Origin: Haematobacter massiliensis
GTDB lineage: Bacteria > Pseudomonadota > Alphaproteobacteria > Rhodobacterales > Rhodobacteraceae
Reading direction: 5' to 3'
DNA: 64,000 nt
Assembly: GCF_000740795.1 (NCBI RefSeq)
Contig: NZ_JGYG01000002.1
Location: 124,001-188,000, forward strand
Shown: piece by piece, positions 49,948-52,970 of the stretch
Position numbering within the stretch: position 1 is the stretch's first letter
How the letters are laid out: each line of letters opens with the position of its first letter
Program-made: the position numbers and the translations under genes
The notes under the pieces: generated by a model
Seen by the model: the letters and a program-made list of their open reading frames with translations, nothing else
Told to the model about the DNA's origin: nothing
Databases searched by the model: none

Positions 49948-51336
49948 ATGGCCGAACTGACCTGCAAACTGCTCGTCATCGGAGCGGGACCGGGGGGCTA
50001 TGTCTGTGCGATCCGCGCGGGCCAGCTGGGGGTGGACACGATCATTGTCGATCCGCAGAAGCCGGGGGGCACCTGTCTCAACATCGGCTGCATCCCCTCC
50101 AAGGCACTGATCCACGCGGCGGAGGAGTTCGCCCGTCTGCGCACCTTCGCGGCGGAGGGCGCGTTGGGCATCACCGCCGCCGACCCTGCCATCGACTTCT
50201 CCCGCACGGTTGCGTGGAAGGACGGCATCGTGGAGCGGCTGAACGGCGGCGTCGGGGGCCTGCTGAAGAAAGCCAAGGCGCGGCTGATCGAGGGCACCGC
50301 GCGTTTCGTCGACGGCAAGACCGTGGCGGTGACGACGGCGGAGGGGGAGGGCCACACCATCACCGCCGAAGCCGTGGTGATCGCGACCGGCTCCGTGCCG
50401 GTGGAACTGCCCTTCCTGCCGTTCGGCGGGGATGTCATCTCCTCCACCGAGGCGCTGTCGCTCTCGGATATCCCGCAGACGCTGGCAGTGGTGGGCGGGG
50501 GATATATCGGCCTCGAGCTCGGCACGGCTTTTGCCAAGCTGGGATCAAAGGTGACGGTCGTGGAAATGGCCGACCGTATCCTGCCGCTTTACGATGCCGA
50601 TCTCACCAAACCCGTGGCGCAGCGGTTGCAGGCGCTCGGCGTCCGGGTGCTTACCGGGGCGAAGGCGCGGGTCTTCGGCAATGGGCAGCTCACCGTCGAG
50701 ACGGGCCGCGAGATTGAGCAGATCCCGGCGGAGAAGGTGCTCGTGACCGTCGGACGGAAGCCGCAGCTGGAAGGCTGGGGGCTGGAGGAACTGTCGCTCA
50801 CGCGGGACGGCAGGTTCCTTGCGGTGGATGATGGCTGCCGCACGTCGATGCGGGGGGTCTATGCCATCGGGGATGTCACGGGGGAGCCGATGCTCGCCCA
50901 TCGTGCGATGGCCCAGGGGGAAATGGTGGCCGAGATCGTCGCGGGAGAGCGCCGCGTCTGGGACAAGCGGGTGATCCCCGCGGTGTGTTTCACCGATCCG
51001 GAAGTGGTGACCGTCGGCCTCTCGCCGGCAGAGGCGGAGGCGCAGGGCATCGCCACATTGACCGCGAGCTTTCCCTTCGCGGCCAATGCGCGCGCGATGA
51101 CGGTGGAGCGCGATGACGGCTTCATCCGGGTGGTCGCCCGCAAGTCCGATCATCTGATCCTCGGCATTCAGGCGGTGGGCCATGGTGTGGCGGAACTGGC
51201 GGCGGCCTTCGGGCTGGCCATCGAAATGGGCGCTCTGCTGGAGGATGTGGCCGGCACGATCCACGCGCATCCGACTCAAGGCGAAGGTCTGCAGGAGGCC
51301 TGTCTCCGCGCGCTCGGCCATGCGCTTCACATTTGA
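49948..51336 (+). CDS. lpdV: Dihydrolipoyl dehydrogenase (E3)
   Basis: E3 (EC 1.8.1.4) reoxidises the lipoyl groups of E2 with FAD and NAD+. The 462-residue protein has the FAD motif GAGPGGY (12-18), the redox disulfide C43/C48 in GGTCLNIGCIPSK, the NAD motif VVGGGYIGLELG, the second FAD contact YAIGDV, and the C-terminal HAHPTQGE with the active-site histidine. It begins one base after the E2 stop. As the dedicated last gene of the operon it corresponds to LpdV rather than the general lpd. Confidence 0.96.
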   Translation: MAELTCKLLVIGAGPGGYVCAIRAGQLGVDTIIVDPQKPGGTCLNIGCIPSKALIHAAEEFARLRTFAAEGALGITAADPAIDFSRTVAWKDGIVERLNGGVGGLLKKAKARLIEGTARFVDGKTVAVTTAEGEGHTITAEAVVIATGSVPVELPFLPFGGDVISSTEALSLSDIPQTLAVVGGGYIGLELGTAFAKLGSKVTVVEMADRILPLYDADLTKPVAQRLQALGVRVLTGAKARVFGNGQLTVETGREIEQIPAEKVLVTVGRKPQLEGWGLEELSLTRDGRFLAVDDGCRTSMRGVYAIGDVTGEPMLAHRAMAQGEMVAEIVAGERRVWDKRVIPAVCFTDPEVVTVGLSPAEAEAQGIATLTASFPFAANARAMTVERDDGFIRVVARKSDHLILGIQAVGHGVAELAAAFGLAIEMGALLEDVAGTIHAHPTQGEGLQEACLRALGHALHI

Positions 51337-51350
51337 AGGCGGGATAGAAG

Positions 51351-51380
51351 AAGCCGCGCCCGTGGGAGGGCGCGGCTCAA
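51351..51380. terminator. Bidirectional hairpin ending lpdV and the small-protein operon
   Basis: GCCGCGCCC (51353-51361) pairs perfectly with GGGCGCGGC (51368-51376) around a six-base loop. It lies 16 bases after the lpdV stop on the plus strand. On the minus strand it lies 20 bases after the 25-residue gene, with TTCTTCT behind it, so it can serve both convergent units. Confidence 0.75.
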
Positions 51381-51396
51381 TATTCACTTCGGTCAC

Positions 51397-51474
51397 TCAG
51401 AAAACGTTGATGAGATAGAGGATGATGATGAGGGGGATCGGAATACCGATCAGCCAAGCAAGTACGCCCTTCAA
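51397..51474 (-). CDS. Tiny single-helix membrane protein (25 residues)
   Basis: A 25-residue peptide, MKGVLAWLIGIPIP at the start and almost wholly hydrophobic after residue 4, so it is a single membrane span. It starts at a TTG with AAGGAG seven bases upstream, ideal spacing and a near-consensus site, which is the main evidence that it is translated. The TGA is followed by the bidirectional hairpin. Peptides with a WLIGIPIP core seem familiar to me from other alphaproteobacteria, but I cannot name a family. It follows the 46-residue gene by 15 bases in one transcript. Function is unknown; a stress-linked membrane role is suggested only by the promoter. Confidence 0.75.
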   Translation of the reverse strand: MKGVLAWLIGIPIPLIIILYLINVF

Positions 51475-51489
51475 CGAAAGCTCCTTAGA

Positions 51490-51630
51490 TCACGGGTGCC
51501 CGTTCGTGCGCTTCTTTCGCTGCGTCGGGCGTTCCACTCGGACCGGCACATCGCGCGCTTTGACATTGGGCACCGCTATTGCTGTAACAACCGCGGCGAG
51601 GGCGAGCAAAAAGGGAAGCGCTGTGGTCAT
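51490..51630 (-). CDS. Small exported or membrane-anchored basic protein (46 residues)
   Basis: A 46-residue protein: a hydrophobic N-terminal segment (about residues 5-20, LPFLLALAAVVTAIAV) and a short, strongly basic tail (RVERPTQRKKR). It is probably anchored with the tail in the periplasm or cytoplasm. AGGA lies 9-10 bases before the ATG. An EcfG-type promoter ends 34 bases upstream of the start and the 25-residue gene follows after 15 bases. I recognise no family. Its length is below usual annotation limits, so it could be missed by standard pipelines. Confidence 0.6.
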   Translation of the reverse strand: MTTALPFLLALAAVVTAIAVPNVKARDVPVRVERPTQRKKRTNGHP

Positions 51631-51663
51631 CTGCTTCTGTCCTGCCTTATCCTACTGACTGCT

Positions 51664-51688
51664 AACGCAGCGCTTTCGCTGTGGTTCC
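51664..51688 (-). promoter_or_regulatory. EcfG-type general-stress promoter of the small-protein operon
   Basis: On the minus strand GGAAC (51,688-51,684) and CGTT (51,667-51,664) are separated by exactly 16 bases. This matches the GGAAC-N16/17-CGTT consensus of the alphaproteobacterial sigma factor EcfG. The expected transcript start is about 34 - 7 bases ahead of the ATG at 51,630, giving a short leader. Confidence 0.7.
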
Positions 51689-51791
51689 CCTTTGGGTAAA
51701 AAACAGGTGCGGCATCGCCGATCTTGCATCAGGCGGCGGGATCGCTTCTTCTCCAGCGATGCGCCGGTAGCGCATGCAAGCGGAGTAAAGC

Positions 51792-52970
51792 GTGGATCAG
51801 GTGACGGACAACGAGAACGAGAACAGGCGGGGTCGACAGATCCATCTCGTCCACCGCGCAGATCTGCGCCGCCCACCGTTGATTGCCTATTCCTCCCTTG
51901 CCCGATGGCTTCTGGTCGGTGTCCTCGCCGCGTCGGTCTGGTTCTTTCACGACTTTCTCGTGCCGGTTCTCGCGGCGACGATCATCGCCTTCGCCACATG
52001 GCCGCTGCGTGTGCGGCTGCATGAAAGGGCCGGGCTGGGGCGCACGCTGACAGGGGCATTGCTCGTCCTTCTCATCGTGCTCTTTCTGGTGATCCCCATC
52101 ATCATCGCACTCGGCTATGCCGCGCGGGAATTTCGCGAATGGCTGTCCTGGGCCATTCAGATCAACGCTGTCGGCGGGCCGCCGCCCGACTGGCTCAACA
52201 CGTTTCCCGTGATCGGAAGCTGGCTCGTGGAGCAGTGGAGCCAGCATATCGGCCGCCCCGGCGCGATCGGAGAGCTTGTTCAGGTGACGAGCGGGGCGAA
52301 TATCGGCACAATCTATCGGGGCGTGCTGACGGCGAGTTCCATGGCGCTGCACCTTGCCCTGGCGCTGATCTTCATGCTCATCACCCTGTTCGTGCTCTAC
52401 CGCGACGGAGACCGGGTTGCCGCGCAGCTCGACATGATGGGGGAGCGGATCGTTCCCGGCAGATGGGAACGGCTTTCGCGGATCATCCCGCGCACCATTT
52501 CCTCCACCGTGACGGGGATGACGCTCATCGCCATCGGAGAGGGCTTGATCCTCGGCGTGGCCTACTGGCTGGCCGGGGTGCCATCCCCCGTCACCTTCGG
52601 GGTCATCACGGGTTTCATGGCATTGATCCCGGGAGGGGCGCCGCTCTCCTTCACGCTCATCTCCCTTTACCTGGTCGGAAGCGGCTCCCCCGGCGCGGGC
52701 GTGGCCCTGTTCGTCTGGGGGTGCGTCGAATTGTTCATCGTAGACAAAACCATTCGGCCCCTTCTGGTCGGGGGGCCGGTGAAGCTGCCGTTCCTGCCTA
52801 CTTTCTTCGGCCTCATCGGCGGGGTGAAGACGCTTGGTATCGTAGGGTTGTTCGTTGGGCCGGTGCTGATGGCATTGCTCGTCTCCATCTGGCGCGAATG
52901 GGCGCGGGAGATTGCGGCTCATCCCTTGCCCCAGCAGCCCGCGTCCCAACCCCGCAATCTGCCCGACTAG
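51792..52970 (+). CDS. AI-2E family permease
   Basis: A 392-residue inner-membrane protein of the AI-2E/PerM (PF01594, formerly UPF0118) family. Members have been linked with autoinducer-2 export, Na+/H+ antiport or solute efflux; no common activity is proven. About eight helices are visible, in the family pattern: two near 36-75, one at 90-112, then a long central stretch, and four or five from about 190 to 375 with LALIFMLITLFVLYRDGDRV and FGLIGGVKTLGIVGLFVGPV as the best conserved parts. It starts at a GTG with GGAG six bases upstream. A terminator follows. Confidence 0.87.
   Translation: MDQVTDNENENRRGRQIHLVHRADLRRPPLIAYSSLARWLLVGVLAASVWFFHDFLVPVLAATIIAFATWPLRVRLHERAGLGRTLTGALLVLLIVLFLVIPIIIALGYAAREFREWLSWAIQINAVGGPPPDWLNTFPVIGSWLVEQWSQHIGRPGAIGELVQVTSGANIGTIYRGVLTASSMALHLALALIFMLITLFVLYRDGDRVAAQLDMMGERIVPGRWERLSRIIPRTISSTVTGMTLIAIGEGLILGVAYWLAGVPSPVTFGVITGFMALIPGGAPLSFTLISLYLVGSGSPGAGVALFVWGCVELFIVDKTIRPLLVGGPVKLPFLPTFFGLIGGVKTLGIVGLFVGPVLMALLVSIWREWAREIAAHPLPQQPASQPRNLPD

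Follow-up and report, generated by a model that had tools for sequence, protein, structure and literature searches.

Among the closest described systems is the EcfG (sigma-EcfG/RpoE2/SigT) regulon of Alphaproteobacteria; the unit described here fits it in promoter boxes, spacer and distance, and its genome encodes the regulators. In S. melonis, the EcfG motif is GGAAC-N17-20-GTT and is enriched within 100 bp of coding sequences (PMC6599016). A PhyR locus is present in Rhodobacter sphaeroides, where PhyR is important under membrane stress (PMC5830050). How the EcfG response protects cells is largely open, and many EcfG-dependent genes have no known function. For S. meliloti, 150 of the 202 protein genes raised by rpoE2 overexpression had no predicted function, and RpoE2-dependent intergenic transcripts and new ORFs were reported in the same study (PMC3616915). 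In the table of EcfG targets in PMC6599016, many entries are 'hypothetical proteins'; a member of the peptide family presented below could be among them.

Stress-induced small membrane proteins are a known kind. Enterobacterial members of the YohP, MgtS, AcrZ and TisB class have some tens of residues, one hydrophobic helix and a stress promoter. The family of the second peptide of our unit, ORF2, is alike in size, predicted helix and probable stress promoter (no sequence comparison was made), but differs from this class in its W-x-x-G-x-P-x-P core, its EcfG-type box and its wide alphaproteobacterial spread. The small stress proteins DUF3309, CsbD and DUF1328 are encoded near some of the peptide loci, but they are larger than the peptides and none of their Pfam models matches them. 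In S. meliloti, novel small proteins were found by ribosome profiling of unannotated sORFs, some with a predicted membrane helix (PMC10117765); RpoE2 is absent from the main text of that paper. None of Pfam, NCBIfam, PHROGs and the PDB provides a name for the ORF2 family, and it is not named in the bearing sections of PMC6599016, PMC5830050, PMC10117765, PMC3616915 and PMC2873474 (supplements excluded). Twelve overlapping sequence strings of the family were absent from the open-access literature searched, and no title found there described it. A prior description is not excluded, as most subscription papers lay outside this search.

The window, i.e. the whole stretch of 64,000 nucleotides of Haematobacter massiliensis DNA that was analysed, had been read in an initial annotation as carrying two tiny membrane-protein genes between an EcfG-type stress promoter and a perfect hairpin acting as terminator. 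The positions of the box, ORF1, the 15-base gap, ORF2 and the hairpin were all confirmed (Table 1); that ORF2 starts with TTG had been omitted. A hairpin is indeed present; its stem (51378-51368 with 51361-51351) consists in the fold of 10 Watson-Crick pairs and one G-U pair, its T-run is weak, and it was absent from the output of the terminator scan. The stem is kept in both sibling species (G001 and G002) with a two-sided change from C-G to T-A. The hairpin may be a terminator shared with the convergent lpd gene, whose end is at 51336. No sigma-70-type promoter was found when the region 51250-51850 was searched. In matching annotated records lpd is named lpdA, and eight plasmid matches of it came from Shinella, Rhizobium and Sinorhizobium, all Rhizobiales.

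Table 1. Coordinates within the window of the two-gene unit and its flanking genes
Feature	Position	Strand	Remark
EcfG-type boxes GGAAC-N16-CGTT, GGAACCACAGCGAAAGCGCTGCGTT	51688-51664	minus	perfect match; first box base 58 bases before ORF1 start
ORF1, ATG start, 46 codons	51630-51490	minus	46 aa in 3/3 genus genomes
15-base gap TCTAAGGAGCTTTCG with Shine-Dalgarno AAGGAG for ORF2	51489-51475	minus	AAGGAG kept in 3/3 genus genomes
ORF2, TTG start, 25 codons	51474-51397	minus	predicted single-helix micropeptide of the W-x-x-G-x-P-x-P family
Hairpin between ORF2 and convergent lpd	51351-51378	not assigned	from fold
Dihydrolipoyl dehydrogenase (lpd), flank	49948-51336	plus	Pfam Pyr_redox_2 + Pyr_redox_dim; outside unit
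AI-2E family transporter, divergent flank	51792-52970	plus	outside unit

Taken singly, the box is weak evidence, because across the genome the motif (spacers of 15-18) shows no enrichment (63+60 matches compared to 115+95 for the reversed motif). The evidence becomes strong through conservation, and our argument rests on position and conservation. The unit was found in the same place in all three genomes available for the genus, those of the window and of the two siblings. Both boxes are identical in the three genomes while the 16-base spacer between them differs, and the ORF1 length, AAGGAG, TTG, the stops and the hairpin are all kept in both sibling species. Outside the genus, the same box was found at a similar distance ahead of many ORF2 relatives. 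The box of the window genus is located 214 bases from ORF2, so that the link between box and ORF2 runs via ORF1; with the box 58 bases upstream, ORF1 occupies the place held elsewhere by the peptide. The promoter spacer of the window also holds a perfect inverted repeat, CAGCG-AAAG-CGCTG (51668-51681), which is absent from both sibling species.

ORF1 has an uncharged N-terminus, a hydrophobic stretch and a basic tail, with a net charge of +6. Judged by hydropathy only, its best 19-residue Kyte-Doolittle mean is 2.22, starting from residue 2. Across the three species of the genus, codons 1-21 show zero amino-acid changes, whereas the tail shows 8-11 changed versus 4-6 silent codons per species pair, with its basic character retained. 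These data support a real hydrophobic segment followed by a loosely constrained basic tail, although they come from three sequences only. ORF1 was found only in the genus (3/3 genomes), and no convincing relatives were detected outside of it among 58 genomes (best E 0.105). Having no W, it falls outside the W-x-x-G-x-P-x-P family. We infer that ORF1 is a lineage-specific accessory single-span protein. The initial annotation had proposed a possible stress-induced peptide pair, a reading that is supported with one correction: the pair is a trait of the genus, while ORF2 alone belongs to a widespread EcfG-linked family.

This W-x-x-G-x-P-x-P micropeptide family was defined in the present analysis by a length of 23-28 aa, a W-x-x-G-x-P core and, usually, a basic residue near the N-terminus. 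ORF2 (MKGVLAWLIGIPIPLIIILYLINVF) meets this definition and has a 19-residue Kyte-Doolittle mean of 2.67 (hydropathy only). A nine-sequence profile detected members (E<=1e-3) in 65 of the 387 class genomes sampled, leaving 322, the majority, without a match at this threshold. For the Rhodobacteraceae, the family of the window, a 14-sequence profile detected them in 24 of 296 genomes. The class-sample genomes were counted as Alphaproteobacteria because they were assigned to the class of the window and most named relatives are found there. A wider collection scan gave at least 61 loci. Alphaproteobacterial hosts among them include Gemmobacter, Belnapia, Roseomonas, Rhizobium, Rhodopseudomonas palustris, Bradyrhizobium, Nitrobacter, Sphingobium, Novosphingobium, Methylobacterium, Bosea and Asticcacaulis. 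Four of the members came from Achromobacter, Pigmentiphaga and Pseudomonas, which we take to be Beta- and Gammaproteobacteria.

Among 123 distinct peptides of 23-28 residues, the W is present in 122, the G in 121, the first P in all 123 and the second P in 110. Over 140 family sequences, the entropy was 1.04, 0.33 and 1.51 bits at codon positions one to three, with its minimum at the second and its maximum at the third, as for coding sequence. Searches with 30 members gave no confident library match (best E: Pfam 0.31, NCBIfam 0.016, PHROGs 0.054), and a search of family members against the PDB returned nothing at E<=10. No match was obtained by tblastn of the peptide against plasmid records, where the low-complexity filter probably masked it; DNA queries were used for these records instead. 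In viral contigs, none of 28 pattern matches was confirmed. A second weak match in the H. massiliensis genome (contig C29, E 0.59, in an 81-aa frame) was not accepted as a family member.

A copy encoding MKGIILWLMGVPLIVIILLYMFVF lies on pSymB of S. meliloti 1021, at 1179526, and is preceded by a perfect box at -57. An identical peptide is encoded in S. medicae WSM419, where the box, again perfect, is at -59. We considered whether the S. meliloti copy could be the RpoE2-dependent sRNA SmelB126 and rejected this, as SmelB126 is located at 1325476. In records of Novosphingobium, Methylobacterium and Mesorhizobium, whose copies have no exact box, the flanking genes are annotated and the peptide is not (the gene table was incomplete). 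Four Sinorhizobium records carry a single annotated feature each, so that a missing peptide annotation is uninformative for them.

The frequency of the box ahead of family members was determined by counting exact matches to GGAAC-N16/17-CGTT with their first base at -140 to -40 from the peptide start, and the expectation was computed from the remainder of the same loci. The first set gave an exact box in 10 of 33 loci compared to 0.12 expected. Since the range of -140 to -40 was set after this set had been seen, the other three sets serve as tests. They gave 14 of 50 loci (0.46 expected), 25 of 52 for the third, named set (0.14 expected) and 10 of 20 for the fourth (0.08 expected), which brings the count to 59 of 155 distinct loci. 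A spacer of 16 was found in 32 of these 59 boxes and one of 17 in 27. Over the remaining spacers from 10 to 25, lengths of 11, 12, 15 and 25 gave one match each and none gave more, and the reversed motif matched once over all spacer lengths. The positions were narrow as well, with 32 of the 59 boxes starting at -60 to -57 and 35 at -60 to -56. An exact box at -140 to -40 is missing from the remaining 96 loci; near matches are present in some of these and absent from others.

Several choices bear on these counts. From the first set the sibling copies (L010 and L011) were dropped, and the window locus (L009) was kept as a miss because its box lies too far, 214 bases, from ORF2. The second set comprised all places from the class search at E<=1e-3 that had no earlier locus. 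L126, L138 and, from the fourth set, L232 had no good start and were counted as misses. Of the at least 61 loci of the named set, nine records were set aside as non-alphaproteobacterial by their titles, leaving 52, and five ORFs of these nine were not counted as family members; the exact box was found in 0 of the 4 beta- and gammaproteobacterial members. Two box-bearing loci titled Marinimicrobia (L181 and L206) were kept in the 52, and without them the count is 23 of 50. Loci L142-L144 and L146-L151 were left out of the analysis. Neither the box counts nor the co-occurrence counts below were corrected for phylogeny, and related species were not weighted down. Peptides lacking the second proline had the box in 3 of 17 loci, compared to 56 of 137 for those with it (one locus was unclassed).

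The regulators of the general stress response are encoded in the same genome. NepR was found with E 2.9e-12 in the genome search and 4.2e-13 by Pfam at the stress locus L145, which also encodes PhyR (PhyR_sigma2, 5.3e-27), an HWE kinase (1.3e-9) and, adjoining nepR, an ECF-type sigma factor (Sigma70_r2, 1.4e-18; r4_2, 2.1e-14; all Pfam). The ecfG-type sigma gene overlaps the end of nepR. For the sigma factor, the ten best plasmid matches carry no annotation beyond 'sigma factor'; they came from Roseobacter, Gemmobacter and Dinoroseobacter, which we take to belong to the order Rhodobacterales, and from other Rhodobacterales. The whole island (L145:3218-8066, contig C3) holds genes for DUF883, DUF1328, phyR, nepR, the ecfG-type sigma factor, the HWE kinase and csbD, so that two of the small stress proteins named above are encoded there. 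Exact boxes precede phyR (-62), nepR-ecfG (-74), csbD (-51) and DUF883 (-86). A fifth exact box in this 11-kb stretch, at L145:9755 (minus), has no assigned gene.

The initial annotation had named searches for ecfG, nepR and phyR and for conservation of the peptides and boxes as checks, and a genome without EcfG together with absent conservation as its refutation. The first search found nepR, phyR and an ecfG-type sigma gene, the second showed that the boxes and ORF2 are conserved, and the refutation did not occur. Its EcfG-type promoter is supported by box, machinery and conservation, and the case had been understated. Its remark that many Rhodobacterales lack EcfG/PhyR was about half right, with NepR detected in 144 of 296 Rhodobacteraceae genomes.

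We also compared the distribution of the peptide to that of NepR. Among the 387 class genomes, 43 have both, 22 the peptide only, 33 NepR only and 289 neither (Fisher p 2e-20, uncorrected for descent). For the Rhodobacteraceae the respective numbers are 21, 3, 123 and 149 (p 6e-5, uncorrected), i.e. NepR is present in 21 of 24 genomes with the peptide versus 123 of 272 others. By the Pfam model used, 22 of the 65 peptide-bearing class genomes have no NepR. In the three Rhodobacteraceae genomes with the peptide and without NepR (G506, G642 and G668), the second proline is missing and there is no box. This pattern is not exclusive: G025 and S. meliloti lack the second proline yet have the box, and in G611, where this proline is missing too, NepR is present and an exact box absent. 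In six (G114, G139, G191, G366, G431 and G647) of the 63 genomes with both, the peptide gene shares a contig with nepR at a distance of at most 5 kb; the NepR match of G114 is below the cut-off. In G366, G139 and G191 (L098, L118 and L115) a peptide paralogue is located no more than about 2.3 kb from nepR, and its -140 to -40 region holds no exact box.

Among the genes near the peptide, we found DUF3309 in 13, CsbD in 10 and DUF1328 in 9 of 166 loci (the DUF3309 seed was confirmed by Pfam). In G041 and G245, where NepR was not matched, the peptide gene is retained next to DUF3309 genes and has no EcfG box (L062, L078 and L092); CsbD is also encoded nearby in G041. Possibly another stress regulator took over in these two genomes. 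No recurrent partner was detected when the neighbours of 52 loci were compared to Pfam: of 103 ORFs (crudely chosen, minimum length 80 aa), no family matched more than seven. The commonest families, with 25 of 66 viewed, were glyoxalase (7) and GST (6), counts which may reflect the shared synteny of many Bradyrhizobium records. Since no family recurs beyond 7 of 103, nothing in the neighbourhood points to a target.

By sequence, the box and its conservation, the EcfG machinery, and the coding nature and conservation of ORF2 are established. EcfG-dependent transcription, translation and insertion into the inner membrane are inferred. Although there are no expression data and EcfG dependence is likewise an inference, we consider it very likely that the unit is under EcfG control, and a bicistronic general-stress mRNA is the likely explanation overall. 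In this model, stress would activate PhyR, which would take NepR off sigma-EcfG (pathway according to PMC5830050). The EcfG holoenzyme would then initiate at the box, giving one short transcript for ORF1 and ORF2, and both peptides would be made and inserted in the inner membrane, ORF2 as one kinked helix. The orientation of membrane proteins follows the positive-inside rule, by which ORF1, with its basic C-terminal tail, would be N-out/C-in, and ORF2 the reverse, N-in/C-out. Through its conserved W and G-x-P-x-P face, ORF2 may act in trans during stress, binding and modulating some common membrane protein or state of the membrane. A specific contact is suggested by the conserved W and the proline-kinked core, and action in trans on something common to cells by the freestanding genes at different loci. 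Whether ORF2 is such a trans-acting single-helix modulator of a membrane target remains an inference for which we see as much reason to doubt as to believe.

ORF2 appears to be a conserved, so far unnamed stress micropeptide, with its stress role inferred in the absence of expression data. Its conservation and tight tie to the EcfG box make it a good candidate for a core output of the response. A bolder reading, towards which we lean slightly, is that of a class-wide core general-stress effector overlooked because its gene is only about 75 bases long: a freestanding EcfG-driven membrane micropeptide with the W-x-x-G-x-P-x-P core and a conserved membrane target, whose hosts range from Sinorhizobium and Bradyrhizobium through Roseomonas and the sphingomonads to Rhodobacterales, and to which lineages may add their own second peptide such as ORF1. 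EcfG-type promoters can in this way lead to genes that annotation may miss.

The main rival, which we consider unlikely, is that peptides of the ORF2 type are TisB-like membrane-perturbing peptides that under EcfG would lower the membrane potential and slow growth. Size, a single hydrophobic helix and a stress promoter are typical of such peptides and match those found or inferred for ORF2, and the genes are freestanding without an evident recurrent partner. However, the W, G and P are near-invariant across the class sample, whereas pore-type peptides tolerate change. Membership of ORF2 in one of the known membrane complexes, as a small CydX-, KdpF- or PsbM-like subunit, is also unlikely. Size and predicted single helix would fit, and there were single weak matches to CydX (0.053) and PsbM (0.036) among 30 members. 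These matches came from one member each, though, the Pfam and PDB searches above gave no better support, and complex genes were not recurrent among the neighbours (25 of 66 families viewed).

That the short ORFs are leader or regulatory ORFs of a transcript acting as RNA is very unlikely. In its favour, codons 1-21 of ORF1 and the final part of its leader are nearly invariant in nucleotides across the three species. Against it, the ORF2 family is conserved at the protein level with freer third positions, and it occurs at unrelated loci without ORF1 and with its own ribosome site. Chance features are all but excluded: the bare motif lacks genome-wide enrichment, but the unit is conserved in the siblings and the box recurs in 59 of 155 loci, where its spacer is fixed and its distance falls in a narrow range.

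During the collection scan, we noted four ORFs (L182, L185, L208 and L212) with an LLWLLGVPIP-like helix at the end followed by RGC[TS]. They come from a Proteobacteria MAG, Verrucomicrobium, a Planctomyces MAG and a Lysobacterales MAG, and apparently form a different small family.
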